From Candidatus Eiseniibacteriota bacterium (GTDB lineage Bacteria; Eisenbacteria; RBG-16-71-46), in NCBI GenBank assembly GCA_023249845.1, contig JAHFBW010000001.1:11545-55597 (forward strand): a DNA stretch of 44,053 nucleotides, written 5' to 3'. Each line of letters begins with the position of its first letter. The stretch's first letter is position 1. This document shows positions 3,484 to 35,906 of the stretch, one piece after another. Both the position numbers and the translations under genes were made by a program. Below the pieces are notes generated by a model, which was not told where the DNA came from, did not search any database, and saw nothing but the letters and a program-made list of their open reading frames with translations.

Positions 3484-3670
3484 ACGTGACCCCCTCAGAT
3501 CGGTCCAGACCCTATGGGGTCATCTGGGCCGGGTACTCGAGGAAAGGGGCGCGGAGATGGCTCGCAAGCGACACACGGCCGAGGAGATCATCGGCAAGCC
3601 GCGCGCGGCCGAGGTCGAACTGGCGAAGGGCCAGAGCGCGCAGCAGGCCTGCCGTAAGATCGGGGTGACG
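3484..3670 (+). repeat. 187-nt direct repeat, copy 1 (IS3 left end)
   Basis: Matches 5474-5660 at a constant offset of 1990 bp with 8 mismatches (179/187 identical by eye). The match starts in the element end and stops sharply at 3670, where copy 1 jumps to orfB sequence and copy 2 continues with the normal orfA reading VTEQTYYR. The two copies therefore descend from the same element but were truncated differently. Confidence 0.9.
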
Positions 3671-3901
3671 ACGCTGTACATCGAGCCGGGCAGCCCATGG
3701 GAGAACGGGTACGTCGAGTCGTTCAACCTCAAGCTGCGGGACGAACTGCTCAACCGCGAGATCTTCTATACGCTGCGGGAGGCGCAGGTGCTGATCGAGG
3801 CGTGGCGGGGGGAGTACAATCAGCGACGACCGCACAGCGCCCTCGGCTACAGGCCGCCGGCGCCCGAGGCGGTCCAGGTCGCGGTGGCTCTAACTCAGTA
3901 A
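3557..3901 (+). pseudogene. IS3 transposase orfA-orfB deletion fusion
   Basis: 114-codon frame. Residues 1-38 match the orfA HTH_Tnp_1 protein (RHTAEEIIGKPRAAEVELAK ... CRKIGVT). From about residue 39 it reads as the extreme C-terminus of orfB: LYIEPGSPWENGYVESF, then QRRPHSALGYRPPAPE. The catalytic core of the rve/DDE integrase is missing: only the last acidic residue (E of VESF) is kept, both Asp residues are lost. It cannot be an active transposase. The in-frame join probably came from a deletion; an ACG trinucleotide at the junction may be microhomology. Confidence 0.85.
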
Positions 3902-5473: not shown

Positions 5474-5660
5474 ACGTGACCCCCTCAGATCGGTCCAGAC
5501 CCTATGGGGTCATCTGGGCCGGGTACTCGAGGAAAGGGGCACGGAGATGGCTCGCAGGCGACACACGGCCGAGGAGATCATCGGCAAGCCGCGCGCGGCC
5601 GAGGACGAACTGGCGAAGGGCCAGAACGCACAGCAGGCCTGTCGCAGGATCGGGGTGACG
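5474..5660 (+). repeat. 187-nt direct repeat, copy 2 (IS3 left end)
   Basis: Partner of 3484-3670; see that entry. Recombination between the two would remove the intervening 2 kb including the secreted protein gene at 4683. Confidence 0.9.
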
Positions 5661-10231: not shown

Positions 10232-12049
10232 GTGCGCCACTTCCTCCCGCCGCTGTTCCTCGCCGGCGCGGTGCTCGCCGCCGCACCCGTCCGCGCCCAG
10301 GTCTCACCTGGCCCGCTCGCCCAAGCGCACGCGGCCCTGGACGGAGCCACGGACTGCTTCCGCTGCCACGCGCGCGGCCAGGCCAAAGCGCAGATGGACA
10401 TGCGCTGCCTCGCCTGCCACACCGAGGTGGACTGGATGAGGACGCAGCAACGCGGGTTCCACGCGCGCGTCGCGACGCAGGCGTGTGCCACCTGTCATCC
10501 CGACCACGGCGGACGCGGTTTCACGCTGATCGCGTGGGAGGGCGGCCGCCCGGAACGATTCCCGCACGCGAAGGCCGGATGGGTGCTCGAGGGCAAGCAC
10601 GCGTCGCTCGCTTGTCGCGACTGCCACAAACCAGGGTTCCAGCGCTCGGAGGCGGTGGAGCTCCTTCAAGTGAAGGACCCCGCGAAGAGCTGGCTCGGCC
10701 TCGAGACGTCCTGCGTGAACTGTCACACGGATCCGCATCGCGGTTCGCTCGGGCGCCACTGCCTCTCCTGCCACGACCAGGCCCGGTGGAGTCCGGCGCA
10801 ACGATTCGACCACGCGCGCACGGGGTATGCGCTCACCGGCGCGCACACGAAGCGCGCTTGCGCCGACTGTCACGCGACGCTCGCCGTGAACGAGGGACCG
10901 GACGCGCGCGGCGCGCTCCGCCCCCGCTGGCGCCCGGTACCGCATGCCCACTGCGTCGCGTGTCACCGCGATCCCCATGCCGGACGCTTCAGCGGGGAAT
11001 GTTCGCGCTGCCACACCACGGCCGGCTGGCGCGCGGTGAACGAACGGCGTTTCGACCACGACCAGACGCGCTATCCGCTTCGCGGCGCGCACGCGGGCGT
11101 GCGCTGTGATGGCTGCCACGCCCCGGCGCACGGCGGTGCCAAGCCTCGGTTCGCGCGCTGCATGGACTGCCACTCCGACGCGCATCGCGGCACCGCCACC
11201 GTGCAGGGCGCCGCGGTGGACTGCGCTTCCTGCCACACGGTGCAGGCGTTCCGTCCCTCGACGTGGCCGCGAACCGAGCACGCGCGCACGCGCTACCCGC
11301 TGCTCGGCGCGCATGCCACCGTCGCGTGCGAGGGCTGCCACACGCGCGCCGACACCGCCAGCGCCAAGGCGGCGACTCTCGGCAGCGCGCGTGTGCGCAT
11401 TCGGCCCGACGCGGCCACGTGCGTAGCCTGCCATCACGACCCCCATGTGGGCCGCTTCGCTCCCGGGGGTACGCGGGCACGAAGCGAGGGCTGCCCGGCG
11501 TGTCATTCCCCAGTCGCGTTCCGGCCCTCGAACTTCGATGGCCGCGCACACGCCCAGAGCGTGTTCCCGCTCGAGGGCGCGCATCGAGCGGTGCCGTGCC
11601 AGCGCTGCCACGAGGAGCTTCGCGAGACGGCCACCGCTTCGACGCTGCGCGGCGGGACGCACCGCACGCTTCGCTTCGAATCGAAGGCCCGCGCCTGCGC
11701 CGACTGTCACCAGGATGCGCATGCCGGCCAGTTCCGCGCGCGCGCCGATCGCGGTGTGTGCGAGTCCTGCCACGACGCGATGGCATTCGTTCCCGCGGCG
11801 CGGTTCGACCACGACCGCGACACGGCGTTCCGCCTCCAGGGCGCGCACGCGCGCACCGCCTGTGCCGCCTGCCATCGCCGCACGACAAGCGCGGACGGCG
11901 TGCGAATCGTGCTCTATAAGCCCACACCGATGCGCTGCGAGAGCTGTCATGCCCCCGGAGGAGCGCCGTCGCCATCGCTCCGTCCGGGTGTGCCGTGGTT
12001 CTCCCCGCGTCGCGCGTCGATCCTGTTCACCACCCGAAGCGGGAGCTAG
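10232..12049 (+). CDS. Exported 20-haem c-type cytochrome of tri-haem repeats
   Basis: 605 residues from GTG 10232, which opens a signal peptide (RHFLPPLFLAGAVLAAAPVRA|Q). Twenty CxxCH haem c motifs are counted. Hemes 4, 7, 10, 13, 16 and 19, exactly every third, share an extended motif: H-x(5-9)-L-x-G-[AK]-H-x4-CxxCH (for example YPLRGAHAGVRCDGCH). The following haem often reads CxxCHxDPHxG. The protein is thus six tandem tri-haem modules with extra haems at the N-terminus, similar to the cytochrome c7/c3-like folds. The numerous non-CxxCH histidines could supply distal ligands. The N-terminal export signal and neighbours suggest a periplasmic or outer-membrane electron wire. The minus-strand 593-aa ORF across it is its shadow. 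Confidence 0.9.
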   Translation: MRHFLPPLFLAGAVLAAAPVRAQVSPGPLAQAHAALDGATDCFRCHARGQAKAQMDMRCLACHTEVDWMRTQQRGFHARVATQACATCHPDHGGRGFTLIAWEGGRPERFPHAKAGWVLEGKHASLACRDCHKPGFQRSEAVELLQVKDPAKSWLGLETSCVNCHTDPHRGSLGRHCLSCHDQARWSPAQRFDHARTGYALTGAHTKRACADCHATLAVNEGPDARGALRPRWRPVPHAHCVACHRDPHAGRFSGECSRCHTTAGWRAVNERRFDHDQTRYPLRGAHAGVRCDGCHAPAHGGAKPRFARCMDCHSDAHRGTATVQGAAVDCASCHTVQAFRPSTWPRTEHARTRYPLLGAHATVACEGCHTRADTASAKAATLGSARVRIRPDAATCVACHHDPHVGRFAPGGTRARSEGCPACHSPVAFRPSNFDGRAHAQSVFPLEGAHRAVPCQRCHEELRETATASTLRGGTHRTLRFESKARACADCHQDAHAGQFRARADRGVCESCHDAMAFVPAARFDHDRDTAFRLQGAHARTACAACHRRTTSADGVRIVLYKPTPMRCESCHAPGGAPSPSLRPGVPWFSPRRASILFTTRSGS

Positions 12050-12052
12050 CCA

Positions 12053-13141
12053 ATGAACCCGAGCCCGCGGTTCGAGCCGGTCCACAAGGTCTTCGCTCTC
12101 CTGCTCGTCATGCTGCCGCTGGTCGCAATCGTCGCCGCGGGGGCTGCCACGCGCCGCGAATCACCCGCCCATCGGTCACGGCCCGAGAGTCCGCACGGCA
12201 AATTCCGTGGCGAATGCGACCAGTGCCACGGCGCGGGCGCCTGGAAGCCCGCGCACATCAGCAAGAGGTTCGATCACGCGAAGTTCGGATTCCGCCTCGA
12301 GGGCGCGCACGCCGCCGCGTCGTGCCTCGGCTGCCATCGGAGCCTCGACTTCGCGTCGGTTTCCATGCAGTGTGCGTCGTGCCACCAGGATCCGCACCGT
12401 GGCGAGATGGGGCCTGATTGCGCGCGCTGCCATTCCGCGCGCAGCTTCGTGGATCGCGGACCGATGGTGCGAGCGCACCAGCTCACGCGCTTCCCGCTCT
12501 CGGGCGGACACGCCACGCTCGATTGCGAGAGTTGTCATCGGCCAGTGGCCCAGGGCCGGTTGCAGTTCGTGAACACGCAGGCCGAGTGCCGTGCCTGCCA
12601 CCTCGGACTGTTTCAATCCGCGAAGGATCCGGACCACGTCAGAGGCGGATTCTCGACCGACTGCCAGACCTGCCACACGGCGATCACCTGGTCACCGGCC
12701 CGATTCGATCACCAGCGCTCGGGTTTCCCATTGACCGGCGCGCACCGCTCGACGCCATGCGCGTCGTGTCACGCGGGCGGGCGTTACGCGGGCACGCCCA
12801 AGGACTGCGTCTCCTGCCACCAGCAGCAGTATGACACCGCGCAGCCCGCCCACGCGGCCGCGGGCTTCGCGGCGAGCGCCTGTGCCGGCTGCCACAACAC
12901 GACGTCCTGGGCAGGCGCCACGTTCGATCACGACACGCGCTACTTCCGCATCTATCAAGGCGGTCACGCCGGTCGGTGGTCGTCGTGCGGCGATTGTCAC
13001 ACGGTGCCGACCAACTTCGCCTCGTTCAACTGCCTCGGCTGTCACCCGCATTCGGATCAGGCCCAGACCGACAGCCGCCACGTTGGGCGCAGCGGTTATC
13101 GCTACGAGAGCTCGGCCTGTTACTCGTGCCACACGCGATGA
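12053..13141 (+). CDS. 13-haem c-type cytochrome with N-terminal anchor
   Basis: 362 residues. An N-terminal hydrophobic segment (about 14-32, FALLLVMLPLVAIVAAGAA) acts as signal or anchor; a cleavage site after GAA is possible. Thirteen CxxCH motifs; numbers 2, 5, 8 and 11 carry the same H...G[AG]H...CxxCH extension as in the neighbouring 20-haem protein, again every third haem, with DPHRG after the third. The two cytochromes therefore share one tri-haem building block and probably arose by module duplication. Starts 3 bp after its neighbour and ends with an ATGA overlap into the barrel gene. Confidence 0.9.
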   Translation: MNPSPRFEPVHKVFALLLVMLPLVAIVAAGAATRRESPAHRSRPESPHGKFRGECDQCHGAGAWKPAHISKRFDHAKFGFRLEGAHAAASCLGCHRSLDFASVSMQCASCHQDPHRGEMGPDCARCHSARSFVDRGPMVRAHQLTRFPLSGGHATLDCESCHRPVAQGRLQFVNTQAECRACHLGLFQSAKDPDHVRGGFSTDCQTCHTAITWSPARFDHQRSGFPLTGAHRSTPCASCHAGGRYAGTPKDCVSCHQQQYDTAQPAHAAAGFAASACAGCHNTTSWAGATFDHDTRYFRIYQGGHAGRWSSCGDCHTVPTNFASFNCLGCHPHSDQAQTDSRHVGRSGYRYESSACYSCHTR

Positions 13142-19077: not shown

Positions 19078-20523
19078 ATGGACACGCCGCTCCCCGAGCT
19101 GTCGACGCTGCTGCCGCGCGAGCTGGCGGAGGAGATCCTGGCGCTGGCGAGGGCCGGCGGCGCCGGCTTCGCCGACCTCTACGCCGAGCACGCCGTGGTG
19201 AGTGGGTTCACGCTCGACGAGCAGCGGTTGAAGAGCGCGAGCTACTCCGTTCTCCGCGGCGTGGGCGTGCGCGCGATCCGCGGAGAGGCCACCGGCTACG
19301 CTTACGCGGACGGTTTCTCGCCGGATGGGCTCCGGGAGGCCGCGCGCGTCGCGGCGCGTATCGCCCGCGACACCCCACCCGCGGCGTCGGGAGCACGCGG
19401 AATGCCGATCGCGTTCCGCGCCTCGGGCGCTCCGCCGCCGTTTCTGTTGCGCGACCCCGCGACGCTGGCGCTCAACGAGATCGCGAAGGTGGAACTGCTG
19501 CGTCGCGCCGACCAGGCAGCGCGTGCTCTCGACCCGCGCGTCCGCGAGGTCTCAGCCTCATTCGGCAGCTCGGCGCGGTCGTTCCTCGTCGCGAACACCG
19601 ACGGCGTGTGGGAGGAGGATCGCACGCACCTGTCGCGGCTCGTCGTCACCGCGCTCGCGCTCGACGGGTCGGAGCGGCAGGAAGCGTTCGCCGCCGGCGG
19701 GGGCTGCGTGGAAGCCGACTACTACGCGCGCGAGCGCACCCCCGAGAGCGTGGCGCTCGAGGCCGCCTCGGGCGCGGTGCTGCTGCTCGCGGCCCACGAG
19801 CCGGAAGCCGGATCCTACCCTGTCGTGGTGTGCAATGGCTGGGGCGGCGTCATGGTGCACGAGTGTTTCGGCCACAGCATGGAGGGCGACACCATCCGGC
19901 GGAAGACGTCCATCCGCGCCACGCAGCTCGGAAGCCCGGTGGCTGCTCCCGGCGTCACCATCGTGGATTCGGGGCTCGTGCCATGGAGTCGCGGCTCGTT
20001 CCGTGTGGACGATGAGGGCACGCCCGCGCAGCGCACCGTGCTGGTGGAGGACGGCGTGCTCGTTGGCTACCTGTGGGATCGGCTGAACGGTGGCCTCACG
20101 GGGCACGCGCCTACGGGCAACGGGCGGCGTGCGTCCTACCGCGACTATCCGCTGTGCCGCATGACGAACACGTGGATCGAACCCGGGCCGCACGCGCCCG
20201 AGGCCCTGCTCGCCGACGTGAAACGCGGGCTCTACTGCAAGAAGCTGGGCGGCGGCTCGGTGAACCCGGCGGACGGCAACTTCTCGTTCCAGGTCACCGA
20301 GGGCTGGCAGATCGAGGACGGCAAGCTCACGCACCCGGTGCGCAACGCCACACTCACTGGCAATGGCAACGACGCGATGCTACGCATCGACGGCGTGGGG
20401 TCCGACCTCGCCATCGACGGGACCACCGGCTCGTGTGGCAAGGATGGTCAATGGAAGCCCGTGGGCGTGGGCCAGCCCACCGTGCGCTTCACCGGGATCA
20501 CCGTGGGCGGCACCGCGGTATGA
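19078..20523 (+). CDS. tldD: TldD metalloprotease subunit
   Basis: 481 residues, full TldD length. TldD carries the zinc-binding HExxxH motif, here HECFGH (His261, Glu262, His266) in VMVHECFGHSMEGD. With TldE it forms a heterodimeric protease that degrades unfolded peptides and matures some modified peptides. The C-terminal GKDGQWKPVGVGQPTVRF stretch and the glycine-rich GGGSVNPADGNFSFQ segment are typical. ATG 19078 begins a sensible N-terminus; the stop overlaps the tldE start (ATGA). No RiPP precursor is seen nearby, so a housekeeping role is more likely than peptide maturation. Confidence 0.93.
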   Translation: MDTPLPELSTLLPRELAEEILALARAGGAGFADLYAEHAVVSGFTLDEQRLKSASYSVLRGVGVRAIRGEATGYAYADGFSPDGLREAARVAARIARDTPPAASGARGMPIAFRASGAPPPFLLRDPATLALNEIAKVELLRRADQAARALDPRVREVSASFGSSARSFLVANTDGVWEEDRTHLSRLVVTALALDGSERQEAFAAGGGCVEADYYARERTPESVALEAASGAVLLLAAHEPEAGSYPVVVCNGWGGVMVHECFGHSMEGDTIRRKTSIRATQLGSPVAAPGVTIVDSGLVPWSRGSFRVDDEGTPAQRTVLVEDGVLVGYLWDRLNGGLTGHAPTGNGRRASYRDYPLCRMTNTWIEPGPHAPEALLADVKRGLYCKKLGGGSVNPADGNFSFQVTEGWQIEDGKLTHPVRNATLTGNGNDAMLRIDGVGSDLAIDGTTGSCGKDGQWKPVGVGQPTVRFTGITVGGTAV

Positions 20524-21893
20524 GCGGCCGCCCCGCGGCGCCCGCCGACCTCACCGCGTTGTGCGAGCGCGCGGTCGAGCGCGCGCGCGCGCACGGCGCG
20601 GCGGTGGCCGACGTCTGCGCCGAGAGTTCGCTCGCGTTCACGGTGCGCGTGCATGGCGGCGCCGTGGACACGCTGAAGCAGAGCGGCACGCTTGGCCTGG
20701 GGGTGCGCGCGATCGTGGGCGGCGCCGTGGGCTTCGCCTCGGGCACGGATCTGTCGCCCGACGGGCTCGACGACCTCGCGCGCCGCGCCGTGGCGATGGC
20801 CAGCTTCGCCACACCGGACGAAGCCAACGACGTCCCCAGCCCGGACGAGGCCGGCCCGCCGTTCACCGGCGACCTCGAACTCGATGACGCCGCGGCGTAC
20901 GAGCTGCTGCCGGAACGAAAGATTGAGATGGCGCTCGAACTCGAGCGGCTGACGCTCGCGGCCGACGCCCGCGTGACACGCACTGACGGCGCCAGTGTCT
21001 CGAGTGCGGGAGGCGCGTTCGCCATGGCCAACTCGCGCGGCGTTTCGCGCGCATGGCAGGGCACAAGCGTGTCGGCGTGGGTCGTGGCGCTGGCCGACGA
21101 CCGCGATGGGCGCCAGCAGACCGGCGCCGAGGGCATGAGCGTGCGCCATCTCGCCGACCTTCACTCGCTCGACTCCATGGCACGCCGCGCGGCGATCCGG
21201 GCCGTGAACCGTCTCGGCGCGCGCACGGTACCGAGCGCGCGCGTGCCCGTGGTGATGCATCCGGACATTGCCGCGGCGTGGATCTCGGAGATGATCGAGG
21301 CGTGGAGCGGCGAGAGCGTGCTCAAGCGCTCGAGCTGGCTCACGGAGCTGCTCGGCGAGACCATCGCGTCGCCGCTCGTGACGCTCGTGGACGACGCCAC
21401 GCTGCCTCGCCGTGTCGGGAGCTCGCCCTACGATGGCGAGGGCCTCTCCGCGCGCCGCAACGTGCTGCTCGATCACGGCAAGCTGGCGATGTTCCTCTAC
21501 GATCACTACCACGCTCGGCGGGCCGGCCGCGCGAGCACCGCGAACGGCCTACGAGGCTGGTCGAGCACGCCGGGCATCGGCACGCACAACCTCTACCTGG
21601 AGCCCGGCACGGACTCGCCGGAAATGCTGCTGCGGCGCGTGGACCGCGGGTTCTACTACGACGACCAGGGCTCGTTCGGCTTCAACCCGGTGACGGGTGA
21701 CTACTCGTTCCAGGCACAGGGTTACTGGATCGAGAATGGCGAACGCACGTACCCGGTGGACGGCATCACGGTGGCCGGCAACTCCCTCGCCATGCTCAAG
21801 GCGATCGCGGGCGTCGCGAACGACCTCGAATGGCGCTCCGCCGTCGCGTCGCCGACACTGCTCATCTCGGAGATGACGATCAGCGGGAGCTGA
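20520..21893 (+). CDS. tldE: TldE/PmbA protease partner subunit
   Basis: 457 residues from ATG 20520 (track start 20073 lies within tldD). Same fold as TldD but without HExxxH, as expected for TldE, the non-catalytic partner that shapes the cleavage chamber. Conserved landmarks include RVHGGAVDTLKQSG near the N-terminus, YDGEGLSARRNVLLDHGKL in the middle and GDYSFQAQGYWIENGE near the C-terminus. Translationally coupled to tldD. Confidence 0.92.
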   Translation: MSGRPAAPADLTALCERAVERARAHGAAVADVCAESSLAFTVRVHGGAVDTLKQSGTLGLGVRAIVGGAVGFASGTDLSPDGLDDLARRAVAMASFATPDEANDVPSPDEAGPPFTGDLELDDAAAYELLPERKIEMALELERLTLAADARVTRTDGASVSSAGGAFAMANSRGVSRAWQGTSVSAWVVALADDRDGRQQTGAEGMSVRHLADLHSLDSMARRAAIRAVNRLGARTVPSARVPVVMHPDIAAAWISEMIEAWSGESVLKRSSWLTELLGETIASPLVTLVDDATLPRRVGSSPYDGEGLSARRNVLLDHGKLAMFLYDHYHARRAGRASTANGLRGWSSTPGIGTHNLYLEPGTDSPEMLLRRVDRGFYYDDQGSFGFNPVTGDYSFQAQGYWIENGERTYPVDGITVAGNSLAMLKAIAGVANDLEWRSAVASPTLLISEMTISGS

Positions 21894-21997
21894 ATTCGTC
21901 GTCTCTCCGCGAACATCGAGCGTTGCGCACGGCGTCTCCTCTCCCAATCGCCTGCCGACTCGGTCGCCCCGCTCGATCGCCTGCCGACTCGGTCGCC

Positions 21998-22141
21998 GCG
22001 GGCCTACGGGGGGCCTCGCACAGGGGATCGTTCGTCGCGGCCATCCCTGGCCGCTCCTCACTCGTCTGGCCGTGGGCTCCGGCATCCTGCCTCCCACCCA
22101 CGTCCAGGCGCCCCCTGTGCGAGACCCCCCTTCCGGCCCGC
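21998..22141. repeat. Fold-back element, 144 bp
   Basis: Arms 21998-22026 and 22112-22141 are inverted copies: GCGGGCC, three to four unpaired bases, GGGGGG, one mismatch, CTCGCACAGGGG. The interior also has smaller inverted repeats (CGGCC/GGCCG, CTGG-CGTGGG/CCCACG-CCAG). Same size as the neighbouring element at 22199 but with a different interior. Confidence 0.7.
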
Positions 22142-22198
22142 GGCTCGATCGTGCGCGGCGAGGTGCGAGCGTCTCCCGTCATCGCACGGTCGAGCCCC

Positions 22199-22339
22199 GA
22201 GCGGCGGGGGCAGTTCGATCGTGGCCAGTCGTGAGCAGCCCGCAGCCAGGGACTGGCGAAGGGCGTCGCGAGCGTCAGGTCGGGCCGGGCAGGAGGCCCG
22301 GCCCGACCGTTGGCCACGAGCGAATCTCCCCCGCCGCTC
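22199..22339. repeat. Fold-back element family 1, copy A
   Basis: Arms 22199-22227 and 22311-22339 pair at 25 of 29 positions. The interior contains a perfect 13-bp hairpin (22278-22290 with 22296-22308, loop AGGAG). It is homologous along most of its length to 33442-33590: both carry CAGGTCGGGCCGG, the matching CCGGCCCG and then CCGTTGGCC, with similar flanks. Both copies lie between convergent genes. Confidence 0.75.
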
Positions 22340-22419
22340 GGGGCGACCGAAGCTGCAGGCGTCCGGCCCGGGGCGACCGAGTCGGCTGGCGTTCGGACCG
22401 GGCCCACAGCGGCCGGAAG

Positions 22420-23631
22420 TCAGGACGTTCGGTAAGTGCTCACAAGTGCGACGCCGCGGCGGGGCATCGGCGACGGCTGCTTCGCGTGGCCCAGCCGAAC
22501 CAGCAGCAGCGGTTCCTCGCCGTCCGCGTGGAAGCGCCGCGCGAGGATCGCCCGGTGTTGCAGCGAGGCCACCGGCGCCGAGAGCGGTTGCTGCGCGACG
22601 CCGAGTGTCGCCGCTCGCAGCGCGAAGCGTTCGTATGCCTGCCCGCCCACGATCCAGCCCGCTTCGCTCGGCGCCGGCAGCGTGAGCAGGGCCAGCGCGC
22701 CCGAGCTGCGCACCAAGTCGCGCATGTCCTTCGCCATGCTCGCCGTGCCCCAACCGTAGAATCGGCTCTGCGGGTGCAGGGCGCGCCCGGACAGCCAGCC
22801 CGCCGGCCCACCCAGCCCCAAGCGCTCCGACGTGATGCCGTCGCCGTGCTCGCGCACGTCGCCATCCGAGCCGCGCAGCCACGCGCGACGCTCGGCCTGC
22901 GCCGCGCGATCGCTCATCACGACACGCACGGCGTCGTGCACCAGGTCCGCGACGGCGTTCACGTCGGAGCGGTCCTCGAGCCAGTGCACGCGCGCTTCCT
23001 CGCCCACTTGCGCGAGCAACTGGCTGCGGTTCGGCATCGTGATCGCGCGACCGTCGTAGCTGCGCGCGTTGGAGCGGCGGTCAGTGAGCGCCGAATGCAG
23101 CAGGCGATCCCGCGCCCGGTCGCCGGGCTGCCACGTCACCGACGCCACCACGAGCGAGCTACCGGGCCGCGAGGTGGTACCCCATGGCAGGTAGCGCACG
23201 CTGGGCTGCTGCCCCCACGCGCGCGCGGCCACGAGCAGGTTCTCGAGCGCGGCACCGAGCGACATCTGCGCGAATCGCTGATCGGGATCATCCAGCGGCA
23301 GGGTGCGTTGCGCGTCGAGCAGCAACCGCAGCTCGCCCGTGTCCACCTCGAACCGCCACGGTTGGGCGTTCCAATAGCTCGGCGCGAGGATCGCGGCGCC
23401 GATCAGCGCTCGCGCTGCCTCGATCGGGTGCGCCGGGATCGCCGCGGGGAGCGACCAGGGTTGGAGTGCGGGAAGCGTGGCGGCCCGCTTCGCCCAGGCG
23501 AGCGATGGTTCGAGCGCACGCAAGGCCGCGGCCCCACCCAGAAGCACCAGGAACCTTCGGCGGTCGAGCGTGAGCGACGCGAACTCGGGGCCGTCGGCGG
23601 CGGATCGCGGCCGCCGTGGTCGATCTCCCAT
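22420..23631 (-). CDS. Tat-exported nitroreductase-like (Acg-type) protein
   Basis: 403 residues. The N-terminus LDRRRFLVLLGGAAALRAL is a twin-arginine signal, so export of a folded, cofactor-loaded protein is expected. The body resembles the nitroreductase/Acg family of FMN-binding proteins: ARALIGAAILAPSYWNAQPWRF near residue 70-95 (the usual SxxNxQPW segment) and DRRSNARSYDG in the middle. Acg-type proteins bind FMN but often lack typical nitroreductase activity. Divergent from the Mut7-C gene, with a 123-bp spacer. ATG 23631 fits the Tat signal. Confidence 0.82.
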   Translation of the reverse strand: MGDRPRRPRSAADGPEFASLTLDRRRFLVLLGGAAALRALEPSLAWAKRAATLPALQPWSLPAAIPAHPIEAARALIGAAILAPSYWNAQPWRFEVDTGELRLLLDAQRTLPLDDPDQRFAQMSLGAALENLLVAARAWGQQPSVRYLPWGTTSRPGSSLVVASVTWQPGDRARDRLLHSALTDRRSNARSYDGRAITMPNRSQLLAQVGEEARVHWLEDRSDVNAVADLVHDAVRVVMSDRAAQAERRAWLRGSDGDVREHGDGITSERLGLGGPAGWLSGRALHPQSRFYGWGTASMAKDMRDLVRSSGALALLTLPAPSEAGWIVGGQAYERFALRAATLGVAQQPLSAPVASLQHRAILARRFHADGEEPLLLVRLGHAKQPSPMPRRGVALVSTYRTS

Positions 23632-31976: not shown

Positions 31977-33380
31977 ATGTTGCTCGACGACCTGTGGTTC
32001 GCGACCATCGACGAGCTCTCGCTCGAGCTGCGCGCCGGCCGGCTCTCGCCTATCGAACTCACGCGCGGCTTCCTCGATCGCATCGCGCGTCTGAACGAGC
32101 GCTACAACGCGTTCGAGCACGTCACGCGCGAGTTGGCGATGGAGCAGGCGGCGCGCGCCGCCGCCGAGTTGCACGCGAACAAGTGGCGGGGGCCCCTGCA
32201 CGGCATTCCGTACGCGGCGAAAGACCTGTTCGACACCCGCGGCGTCCCGACCGCGTGGGGCACGTCGTTCCTGCGCGACCGCGTGCCTGACACGAACGCC
32301 ACGGTGGTGGACCGGCTCGAGGCCGCAGGTGCGATCCTGCTCGGCAAGACCGCGATGGTGGAGTTCGCGGGCTGCCTCGGCTACCGCTACGCGAACGCTT
32401 CCGCGAGCGGGCCCGGGCGCAATCCATGGGACCCATCACGCTGGACGGGCGGTTCGTCTTCCGGCTCCGGCGCCGCTGTCGCGGCCGGGCTGGCCACGTT
32501 CGCGCTCGGCACTGAGACGTGGGGCTCGATCCTGTGCCCGTCCGCGTTCTGCGGGCTCACCGGCATCCGGCCCACGTACGGGCTGGTCTCACGCGCCGGC
32601 GGCATGGTTGGCGCCTACACGTTCGACAAAGTGGGTCCGCTCGCGCGCTCGGCGTCCGATTGCCGAACGGTGCTCTCGGCGATCGCCGGGGCCGATCTGC
32701 GCGATTCCTCCGCTCACGACAGTGCGGTGCGGCTCACGCGCGGCGCCGCGAAGCCGGTTCGTTCGCTCAAGGCCGCGCTGGTGCCGCTGGATTGGTCCAA
32801 GGTGGGCGAACCTGAGGTGAGGGCGGCGTTCGAGGCTGCCGCGGCCGAGCTGCGTGCGGCGGGATTGTCGATGGAAACGGCAGCACTGCCCGAGGGCCCC
32901 GCGTCCGAGGTGTCGGGGCTTCTGATCGGCGTCGAAGCGCTCGCGTCGTTCGAGATGTTCCTGGACGACGGGCGCGTGCGGCGGCTCGCCGACCGCATGG
33001 CGCCACGTCAGCGCGAGCTCGCCGAGCCCATCACCGGTGCCGACACAGTGAAGGCGATGCGCGTGCGCGAGTCGCTGCAGCGCGAGATGCGCGACTTCTT
33101 CACGCGCTTCGACGTGATCGTGACGCCCAACTTCATGAGTGTGGCACCGCCAGTCGATCAGGACCTGAACGAAGCGCTCCCCTACGGCGATCCGGTGGGT
33201 GCGCTCGCGGCCGCATGCGGCCTGCCCGGACTGGCGCTGCCGGCCGGCACGGGCAAGGCCGGCATGCCGGCGGGGTTCCAGCTCGTGGCAGCGCCATTCG
33301 AGGAAGCCACGTTGTTCGACCTGGGTGAGCGCTACCAGGCGCGAACTGTGCACCACCGCAAGCATCCGGCGATCGTTTGA
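31977..33380 (+). CDS. Amidase-signature family hydrolase
   Basis: 467 residues. Complete Ser-cisSer-Lys catalytic machinery of the amidase signature family: Lys82 in AAKDLFDT, the GGSSSGSG loop (Ser160-162) and the nucleophile Ser184 in TETWGSILCPS, followed by CGLTGIRPTYG. Such enzymes cleave carboxamides; GatA of tRNA amidotransferase shares the fold but no GatB/GatC is present, so a free amidase is more likely. No signal peptide. Last gene of the plus-strand group beginning at 29377. Confidence 0.9.
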   Translation: MLLDDLWFATIDELSLELRAGRLSPIELTRGFLDRIARLNERYNAFEHVTRELAMEQAARAAAELHANKWRGPLHGIPYAAKDLFDTRGVPTAWGTSFLRDRVPDTNATVVDRLEAAGAILLGKTAMVEFAGCLGYRYANASASGPGRNPWDPSRWTGGSSSGSGAAVAAGLATFALGTETWGSILCPSAFCGLTGIRPTYGLVSRAGGMVGAYTFDKVGPLARSASDCRTVLSAIAGADLRDSSAHDSAVRLTRGAAKPVRSLKAALVPLDWSKVGEPEVRAAFEAAAAELRAAGLSMETAALPEGPASEVSGLLIGVEALASFEMFLDDGRVRRLADRMAPRQRELAEPITGADTVKAMRVRESLQREMRDFFTRFDVIVTPNFMSVAPPVDQDLNEALPYGDPVGALAAACGLPGLALPAGTGKAGMPAGFQLVAAPFEEATLFDLGERYQARTVHHRKHPAIV

Positions 33381-33441: not shown

Positions 33442-33590
33442 GCGGTGGGTGAGGGGGACCGCGATCGGGGCCAGCCGCGCGCAGGCCGAAGGCCAGGATG
33501 GCCGGAGGCCGTCGCGCGCGACAGGTCGGGCCGGCCCTGGACGGGCCGGCCCGCCCGTTGGCCCCGATCGCGGTCCCCCTCACCCGCCGC
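33442..33590. repeat. Fold-back element family 1, copy B
   Basis: 149 bp with arms 33442-33473 and 33559-33590: 27 consecutive perfect base pairs (33447-33473 with 33559-33585), extended by a G-U pair and four more pairs. The interior holds a perfect 11-bp hairpin (CGGGCCGGCCC, loop TGGAC). Homologous to the element at 22199-22339 and, like it, in a convergent gap, here between the amidase and the large lipoprotein gene. Confidence 0.8.
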
Positions 33591-33601
33591 GACACCGCCG
33601 C

Positions 33602-33667
33602 GATGACTCCGCGATGACTCCGCGATGACTCCGCGACGACTCTACGACAACTCCGCGAATGCTCAGC
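33602..33667. repeat. 11-bp tandem repeat, six units
   Basis: Three perfect copies of GATGACTCCGC followed by three degraded copies (GACGACTCTAC, GACAACTCCGC, GAATGCTCAGC). The last unit overlaps the stop codon of the large lipoprotein gene (33663-33665). Simple slipped-strand repeat; no function evident. Confidence 0.8.
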
Positions 33668-35906
33668 GCGGCACGTTCCGCCGGGGGATCCGCCACGCTT
33701 TCTGCAGCACCCAGTCCAGAATCGCGAGCTGCTGCTCGCGGCGCCAGTACCAGAGCTGGAATCCGCTGTATACCTGAATCTGACCGCCGAACCCGCCATA
33801 GTACACGGTCATGATCGGCCGCTGCGCGCCGAACTGTCCGCCCACGGATTCGTATAGCGTGTCGAGCACGGACTCCTCGCGCTTGATGCCCGGGCTCGGG
33901 TCGCGGTCCTCGATCATGTTGTTCGGCTTCGTGATCCCATCGCCGATGTGCGCGGTCTGGTAGAAGTCGGAGAGGCCGATGCGGTTCGGGGCGTAGACCG
34001 CGATGGGGTCGGTGTCCACGCCCTTCTCGAACAGGTAGTCGGGGAGCCCGGTGTAGTCCATCGGGCTCGTGCTCCGGCCGATCGGGTGCGGCGGCGCCGT
34101 GGCCTGAGCCATGGATTTCGCCGAGATCTCCGAGCGCCAGCCGAACACGTCGTACATGAATCGGCCCGGTACCAGTTCTCCGTCGGTCTGGGAATACACG
34201 TCCGCCGGGGGCGCTTTCTCCCAGTTGATCTGCAGCGCCGTCGCCGTGCCGCCGCCGAACATCCACAGCTGGCCGCCCTGGCCGATCCAGGTGCCGATCG
34301 GGTTGCTGCGTCCGGGAAGCGTGAGCCAACGCAACTCCGACATGGGCTCCACCGTCGAGAACGGATCGTTGATGAAGCGCGCGCTCTTGTTGTCCGTGTA
34401 CCAGACGACGTGCCGGTAGCGGGACAGCCGCTGAAGCGTGAGCGTGCCCTGCGGCAGGAACCGCGTGCCGAGTGTGTCGTAGTCGTAGCCGCTGAAGATA
34501 CCCGTCGGGGACAGCGTGCCGGTGGGATAGCACTTCCACGGCACGCCACCCTTCGCGAAGAAGAACGTGTCCAGCTCGGCCGCGGTGGGCCACACGCCGC
34601 GTGGCCGATCCACGCAGCCGCCCGTCACGGGCCGGTCACCGGAGAGCCTCGTGTCGTCCACGAAAAGCAATTCCTTGTCGAACACGGCGCGCACGACGGC
34701 GAACTGCACCACGGCGAGACTCGTCTGCTGGTTGTTGTCGGTGGCCTCGATGTACAGCGTGTGCGTCTCGCTGTTGTTCGCGGGGTTGAACGGTGGGAGA
34801 TCGACACCCAGTGTGAGGGGCGACGAGCGGCTCCAGCGGTCGAACTGCGCGTTCTCGTCGTCGCGCGGGGTGTTGTTGCCGACATTGCCGTCGAGCATCC
34901 AGCGATAGCCGGCCACATAGCCGCCAGCCGGCGTGGTGCCGAACCAATTGAACCGAACGGGCTTCCCGGCCGGGGCCTCGGTGTGAATGAACGAGGCGGG
35001 GTCGAGCGAGTAGCCGCCGGAACCGAGCGAGTAATAGAAGCTCTCGTTGTACACCGTCATCTTGGGCCCGAGCAGCCCGGCGTAGTTGACGTCGAACAGC
35101 AGCATGTTGACGTCCTGGTTGAACACCGGCGAGTAGGCACCGACCTCATCGAACGCAACCACGATCGCCATGTAGCGCCGTTTCGGGACCAGGTCTCGGA
35201 TATCCACGGCGGTGGTGTCGCCGCCCACCGAGTCCCATTCACTGAAGTCCGGTGCATAGCGCCGGCGCAGCGAGTCCGGGTTCGTGAGCATTTGCAGCCA
35301 GTCGAACTCGGTGCTGGCGTCGTTGAAGATCTTGAACTTGTACTTGACCGGCTTGTTCGTTCCGCGGCCATCGGGGTCGTTGCCAGTCCACCCGAGTCGG
35401 AACGACGGACCGAATGTGGGCTGGAAGAAGTGGTTGATCGGCGGCTGGATGATCTGCACGGTCGGTGCGATGGTGAACGACGTGAGCGACCGCCACACGG
35501 GAGGCGATATGGCGCCGCGGTCGTCCACGGCCTCCAGCACGATCGTGTGGTAGCCCTCGGCCGTCTGGTCGGTGGTCGTGTCCACGTGGTCCGCGTGGAA
35601 CAGGAATGACTGCCGGTTCTCGAGCGTGCGCACCCACGTCGTTTCGGCATTGGGGGCCGTGGGCGGATCCACGGCGTAGCGGAAGTAGTCCACGCGCCCG
35701 TCCACGTCGTAACCCGCCCAGCGCAGCTCGTAGCCATAGAAGAACGGCTGGTTCACCGACACCGGCGCCTGCGTCACCTCGATCGTCGGGCGCACGTTCG
35801 GCAGCACTGGCAGCGGCTCGACCGAGCATCCGGCGAGCCCCGATCCAGCTAGCCATGAGATCGCCAGCACGGCCGCGCGCGCGCGGCCCAGGCGGACCAC
35901 GGACAT
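33663..35906 (-). CDS. Large lipoprotein with fibronectin-like domains
   Basis: 747 residues from ATG 35906 with GGAGG five bases upstream; the track start at 35966 is earlier. Lipobox GLAGC (Cys27) predicts a lipid anchor. The mature chain starts with Ig/fibronectin-III-like segments (YFRYAVDPP, LRWAGYDVDGRVDYF, LEAVDDRGAISPP), then a long region with LFVDDTR and LWMFGGGTA that resembles the Rossmann-like alpha/beta part of putative GATase-like or peptidase-related surface proteins, but no catalytic set is confirmed. Similar very large exported proteins are frequent in FCB-type candidate phyla. Function unknown; probably cell-surface. Confidence 0.72.
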   Translation of the reverse strand: MSVVRLGRARAAVLAISWLAGSGLAGCSVEPLPVLPNVRPTIEVTQAPVSVNQPFFYGYELRWAGYDVDGRVDYFRYAVDPPTAPNAETTWVRTLENRQSFLFHADHVDTTTDQTAEGYHTIVLEAVDDRGAISPPVWRSLTSFTIAPTVQIIQPPINHFFQPTFGPSFRLGWTGNDPDGRGTNKPVKYKFKIFNDASTEFDWLQMLTNPDSLRRRYAPDFSEWDSVGGDTTAVDIRDLVPKRRYMAIVVAFDEVGAYSPVFNQDVNMLLFDVNYAGLLGPKMTVYNESFYYSLGSGGYSLDPASFIHTEAPAGKPVRFNWFGTTPAGGYVAGYRWMLDGNVGNNTPRDDENAQFDRWSRSSPLTLGVDLPPFNPANNSETHTLYIEATDNNQQTSLAVVQFAVVRAVFDKELLFVDDTRLSGDRPVTGGCVDRPRGVWPTAAELDTFFFAKGGVPWKCYPTGTLSPTGIFSGYDYDTLGTRFLPQGTLTLQRLSRYRHVVWYTDNKSARFINDPFSTVEPMSELRWLTLPGRSNPIGTWIGQGGQLWMFGGGTATALQINWEKAPPADVYSQTDGELVPGRFMYDVFGWRSEISAKSMAQATAPPHPIGRSTSPMDYTGLPDYLFEKGVDTDPIAVYAPNRIGLSDFYQTAHIGDGITKPNNMIEDRDPSPGIKREESVLDTLYESVGGQFGAQRPIMTVYYGGFGGQIQVYSGFQLWYWRREQQLAILDWVLQKAWRIPRRNVPR

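Follow-up and report, generated by a model that had tools for sequence, protein, structure and literature searches.

The window analysed here is a stretch of 44,053 nucleotides of Candidatus Eiseniibacteriota bacterium (assembly GCA_023249845.1, contig JAHFBW010000001.1, positions 11,545 to 55,597), and our subject is a family of non-coding fold-back elements that it carries in three copies, E1, E1b and E2. A first-pass annotation had described two homologous fold-backs which share a hairpin core and lie in gaps between genes pointing toward each other. The homology stands, with bounds refined to 22195-22343 (E1) and 33444-33588 (E2), and the flanking gene calls bear out the convergent setting of both; when further copies were looked for in the genome, as had been proposed, a third was found at 21995-22144 on the minus strand (E1b), and about 20 overall. 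The shared core is real as well, with 76% identity over 82 nucleotides and a mean column identity of 84% for the whole element, but it is no simple hairpin: each element is a three-way junction, in which a long stem, P1, carries two arms, P2 and P3. The features of the two gaps are as follows.

20520..21893, plus strand: PmbA/TldD-family gene (Pfam PF19289), 3' end towards the E1 doublet
21949..21994, minus strand: paired repeat with core GACCGAGTCGGCAGGCG at ~30-bp spacing, left edge of the doublet unit
21995..22144, minus strand: element E1b, the divergent member and E1's partner in an inverted doublet (covariance-model match 22008-22129)
22145..22194: spacer separating E1b and E1 (78 nt when measured between the model matches)
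22195..22343, plus strand: element E1, a three-way-junction fold-back in the order P1 arm, P2, P3, P1 arm (fold z -10.0; covariance-model match 22207-22332, 132 bits)
22345..22391, plus strand: two inverted copies of the GACCGAGTCGGCAGGCG-core repeat, right edge of the doublet unit
22420..23631, minus strand: gene opposite PmbA/TldD across the E1 doublet (sub-threshold nitroreductase-like matches only)
31977..33380, plus strand: amidase gene (Pfam PF01425), 3' end towards E2
33444..33588, plus strand: element E2, a solo three-way-junction fold-back (fold z -12.7; covariance-model match 33453-33580, 107 bits)
33663..35906, minus strand: gene opposite the amidase across E2 (no match in Pfam)

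Both E1 and E2 are far more foldable on the plus strand than shuffled DNA, as none of 200 shuffles equalled either of the z scores given above, and very stable stems form on both of their strands. The outer P1 arms of E1 are CCCCGAGCGGCGGGGG / CCCCCGCCGCTCGGGG. E1b is matched with an E-value of 1.4e-5 by covariance model R1, which was built on seven copies, and with 69.7 bits by the broader model R2, built on 39. Together with its terminal repeats the doublet forms a unit of 412 bp (21989-22400) that occurs twice in the genome, being seen again at C124:198-605 with 90% identity.

A covarying three-way junction

The folded element is T-shaped, with P2 broken by a 3x3 internal loop and both arms tipped by a CAGGATG-type loop, beneath which lies a GNA/GRA internal loop (in P2, and in P3 of many copies) or a pair of tandem GA mismatches (in the other P3s). 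The two arms resemble each other, since the P2 consensus GNAGCCAGGATGGCGGAG is close to the frequent P3 form GGAGCAGGATGCGGAG. The GGA of the terminal loop is nearly invariant, being kept in 119 of 129 P2 and 120 of 128 P3 loops, whereas different letters occur at the N of the 5' GNA; this is the pattern expected if a partner reads the terminal loop and the internal loop merely stacks.

The claim that the copies differ in sequence and yet keep their pairing proved right. When seven copies are simply aligned with MAFFT, double changes affect 21 of the 49 predicted pairs; in a model-fitted alignment of 39 copies, which is biased towards the model, P1 nonetheless being ungapped in nearly all copies, double compensatory changes are seen at 43 of 44 pairs. 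In the latter alignment 93.2% of the paired cells can pair, against 33-43% with the partner slid and 63% with the 3' letters shuffled, and the covariation reaches 0.63 against 0.15 after shuffling. The element family thus folds as a three-way junction and covaries accordingly.

As to which strand folds, the mismatches within P1 were counted by an ungapped walk with the register fixed by Watson-Crick pairs only. Read on the strand that carries the GGA loops, G.T mismatches outnumber A.C mismatches by 133 to 43 (p = 7e-12), and purine-purine outnumber pyrimidine-pyrimidine mismatches by 131 to 39. A fold of the complementary strand would give the reversed bias, so it is the fold of the GGA-loop strand that matters, and this strand is the one folded when single, as RNA or as single-stranded DNA. 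Between these two the mismatch test is blind, because DNA too tolerates G.T better than A.C.

Compensatory change by itself is not sufficient for the selection on structure that the first-pass annotation had read from it, because template switching between the arms of a hairpin yields the same pattern (PMC8604942, PMC8794818). What supports selection, besides the near-invariant GGA loops, is the slow change at orthologous sites. In four orthologous elements of the window's genome and its sister G001, 24 of 567 positions have changed (4.2%; range 2.7 to 7.9%), compared with 57 of 288 (19.8%; range 11.5 to 33.3%) in the rest of the blocks, i.e. the elements change about five-fold less than the adjoining intergenic DNA, in a comparison where some blocks take in a short adjoining stretch that may or may not be coding, and where recent gene conversion could contribute.

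The outer part of P1 behaves differently from the core. P1 is 20 to 60 bp long by the ungapped walk (median 30) and ends abruptly, and over its ten outermost positions different genomes agree by only 39%, yet 90% of the positions are paired. Template switching is reported to homogenise the arms of inverted repeats and to invert their spacers (PMC8604942), and PMC8794818 describes it as creating and maintaining RNA hairpins; such a process probably acts on the outer arms of the elements. That a shared core was inserted into pre-existing palindromes is unsupported, as genomes without the element are also without the arms at the sites compared.

Family size and distribution

The assembly of the window's genome, 433 contigs totalling 3.59 Mb with a completeness of 87% and some 5% contamination, holds several more copies by DNA search, and at least 15 copies at E <= 1 with R1 or at least 19 at E <= 0.01 with R2; all copy counts are lower bounds and the model E-values are rough. 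Beyond it, copies matched by R1 occur in 10 further genomes out of 19 in the host's family and in no other genome searched, and with R2 the tally at E <= 0.01 is at least 136 copies, spread over 17 of the family's 20 genomes. As a related-genome control, R2 gave no copy at 1e-4 among 27 other genomes of the phylum, where stricter filters were used. The element family is therefore restricted to one bacterial family. At the gathering score Rfam matches neither the window nor any of five further loci, and at a relaxed threshold the matches are at chance level and none is credible; the element belongs to none of the known families tested. Carriage by viruses was considered and dismissed, the single motif match in a viral contig collection not being an element.

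Placement relative to genes

Placement, orientation and distances were derived from gene calls of a home-made codon-model caller. Among 125 placed copies, 96 lie in gaps (34 convergent, 50 tandem and 12 divergent), 10 lie in a reading frame and 19 at a contig edge. Convergent gaps are clearly enriched, as they make up 31 of 90 element-bearing gaps and 39 of 380 empty gaps of the same loci (odds ratio 4.6, Fisher p = 1e-7); for divergent gaps the same comparison shows no departure either way. Residence between converging genes, as first described for E1 and E2, is thus a preference of the family but not a rule, since convergent copies are a minority and the tandem ones usually sit close behind a stop codon, at a median of 61 nt from the upstream stop and 168 nt from the downstream start. 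In these tandem gaps the orientation to the genes is random (21 sense, 29 antisense, p = 0.32). Most copies are singlets; in each of the nine doublets the two members are inverted in one and the same order, separated by a spacer of 53-174 nt. The first-pass annotation had named an absence of further copies, or a random placement without covariation, as what would speak against it; instead, copies, convergent enrichment and covariation were all found.

Some copies lie in or beside a dnaE2-like DNA polymerase frame, at two linker positions (L052:174-298, L085:2044-2381, L093:919-1038, L152:3001-3124, L169:1950-2069 and L178:3001-3121), those of L052, L085 and L093 being apparently stop-free where translated. 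At the second position the element is found in four genera, always in one orientation, and the cores at these sites look like the other copies of their own genomes, as judged by eye.

Differences in site occupancy

Related genomes were compared site by site. Some sites hold an element in one genome but not in others, and doublets have been reduced to one member in sister species, where at one site each species retains a different member. Solo copies match over the element only, the similarity stopping abruptly at its ends. Moreover, 81 of 113 copies find their closest core within their own genome. Several sites are common to different genera.

Comparison with known systems and candidate partners

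The closest likeness is to the REP, REPIN and BIME repeats with their RAYT (TnpAREP) proteins, which are likewise dispersed extragenic palindromes forming inverted doublets with a short spacer, with doublet-derived singlets, genome-specific sequence types and, now and then, a copy lying in frame within a protein linker (PMC3116915, PMC6006769). The elements are dispersed, mainly extragenic palindromes and form inverted doublets; a hairpin of 20-40 bp, a RAYT with HUH and Tyr and repeats flanking a RAYT gene were not found. REPs, namely, are hairpins of 20-40 bp, usually in hundreds of copies, and have a GTAG-type foot and a REP-flanked RAYT gene, whereas the present elements are three-way junctions of about 125-150 nt in at most about 20 copies per genome, with no active RAYT adjoining. 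The Class 3 TnpAY1-associated structures, for example in Solibacter, are alike in being repeated atypical secondary structures that go with an IS200-like protein, in phyla that have received little study (PMC6006769). Miniature inverted-repeat transposable elements (MITEs) and the enterobacterial repeat units (RU-1, RU-2, ERIC-like) are similar in being 100-170 bp long, self-complementary, intergenic and sometimes in frames (PMC2759123); unlike the present elements, MITE copies have common terminal inverted repeats, while here the outer arms are copy-specific and the core alone is common. The MITE-like option of the first-pass annotation is apt as to lifestyle, and its account of convergent placement is incomplete in view of the tandem, divergent and in-frame copies.

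Two proteins come into question as partners. The first is a single-copy IS200-type protein found in 19 of the 20 genomes of the family:

G000:C229:13047-13385 (L116:1429-1905), minus strand: IS200-type protein of the window's genome, with a relative, likewise in single copy, in each of 18 further genomes of the family

Alignment with an IS200-type transposase of solved structure shows that it keeps the HUH motif and that Arg replaces the catalytic Tyr in all nine sequences; in NCBIfam it falls in IS200, below the REP-transposase cut-off. With model R1, no convincing element was found within about 1.5 kb of its gene in nine genomes. As an active RAYT this sole candidate can be set aside, having Arg at the Tyr position, scoring below that cut-off and lacking an element beside its gene. 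From its sequence, the protein is likely a domesticated, cleavage-dead binder of single-stranded DNA. The second is CsrA, for which the genome has a csrA gene with a canonical sequence. Like CsrA targets, the elements display GGA in hairpin loops, flanked by A and by U/G, and both loops fit the CsrB repeat CAGGA(U/A/C)G and the core ARGGAUG obtained by systematic evolution of ligands by exponential enrichment (SELEX; PMC7652899). The CsrB/RsmZ-type CsrA-binding RNAs, which carry this repeat in hairpin loops, are however single-locus small RNAs with many hairpins, whereas here two hairpins per element are scattered in random orientation.

Other features of the window

Immediately at the right foot of E2 begins a tandem repeat with a unit of 11 bp (CCGCGATGACT with variants; 33587-33660). 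The PmbA/TldD-family gene beside E1b is the second of two such genes, adjacent and in tandem with a 4 bp overlap (19078-21893). Elsewhere, 10232-13141 holds genes for multihaem c-type cytochromes (Cytochrome_C7, c3) in which haem-binding stretches are repeated. A direct repeat of 187 nt, 96% identical, is found at 3484-3670 and 5474-5660; its first frame resembles the start of an IS3-type transposase orfA, with an integrase-core fragment at 3557-3901, and these repeats are probably insertion-sequence remnants.

Discussion

With about an even chance of being right in our estimation, the elements are lineage-specific dispersed non-coding repeats with a REPIN-like lifestyle, several-fold larger than REPINs, forming a T-shaped three-way junction and recognised as a folded single strand. 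A mobile, REPIN-like nature is suggested by the dispersed copies, the inverted doublets, the duplicated 412-bp unit and the abruptly ending solo copies, and also by the filled and empty sites, the divergent loss of doublet members and the within-genome likeness of the cores; selection of the structure is suggested by the covariation, the G.T bias, the GGA loops and the slow change of orthologues. The GGA-loop strand would fold when single, P1 closing the junction and P2 and P3 presenting two similar hairpins. A host protein may then recognise the paired GGA hairpins on this strand, as single-stranded DNA of replication or as RNA, and the recognition might drive occasional copying to new sites, benefit the host, or both. 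Insertions would survive chiefly just past stop codons, where genes and promoters are spared, and the P1 arms could stay complementary but copy-specific by template switching between arms plus selection of the fold. Template switching can also flip the core, which would account for the random orientation.

Several observations weigh against this interpretation. The sites shared across genera mean that a large part of the population has long been in place and is static, and genome-specific cores can also come from gene conversion without movement. Neither a target duplication nor a fixed end was found, and a k-mer scan of the flanks gave weak enrichments only, with no shared end or target motif, a GTAG/GTGG foot not being searched as such. 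Nor was a REP mobiliser, that is a RAYT with catalytic Tyr, found, as the only IS200-type protein has Arg and no adjoining element.

The same loops and gene-end positions admit other explanations. The elements could be CsrA-binding RNAs, the two CAGGAUG-type loops of a copy suiting one CsrA dimer, and copies in 3' untranslated regions titrating CsrA as CsrB does or letting it act at transcript ends. The loop sequences, the canonical CsrA of the genome, the closeness to stop codons and the excess of G.T over A.C, which suits G.U pairs in RNA, all agree with it; but it is weakened by the random orientation in tandem gaps, which would put the wrong strand into the transcript at about half of the copies. 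CsrA is also encoded outside the family, in genomes devoid of the element; the stems of SELEX ligands are for the most part short, with at most 4 pairs (PMC7652899), and the hexaloop that is preferred is wider than many of the P2 loops. We regard it as unlikely, yet as an alternative to be taken seriously. Improbable, in our judgement, is that they are bidirectional terminators or barriers at gene ends, homologous merely through their spread as a repeat. This option of the first-pass annotation agrees with the convergent enrichment, the nearness to stop codons and the very stable stems on both strands; for this purpose, however, any long stem would suffice, which leaves the keeping of two loop motifs and of one strand unexplained, the copies in divergent gaps and reading frames do not fit, and the GC-rich stem is followed by no T run in E1 or E2, the two copies looked at.

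There is, finally, the view of the family as neutral debris: the repeat would be inactive, its perfect stems the product of nothing but template switching during replication, and its structure unselected. The long, perfect, copy-specific arms with sharp ends are what the reported effects of template switching on arms, spacers and hairpins would produce (PMC8604942, PMC8794818), and neutral debris may indeed describe the outer arms. For the core it is largely excluded, as it leaves unexplained the near-invariant GGA loops, the strand bias of mismatches and the slow change of orthologues, and for the elements as a whole we consider it very improbable.

A bolder extension of the REPIN-like interpretation, which we put forward only tentatively and think rather doubtful, is that the elements are chromosome-wide landing sites with twin GGA hairpins for a host protein, either CsrA binding them as RNA or the tyrosine-less IS200-type protein binding them as single-stranded DNA, and selected at gene ends; a mobile repeat would then have turned into a regulatory or chromosome-organising system. 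The structured repeat family shows a covariation that is unusually strong for a dispersed DNA repeat, and its restriction to one bacterial family, its similar arms and its near-invariant loops make recognition by a protein directly testable with synthetic oligonucleotides. The family also offers natural material to separate selection from template switching as the source of perfect stems. If the REPIN-like interpretation is true, such a lifestyle would be possible on a far larger folded unit.
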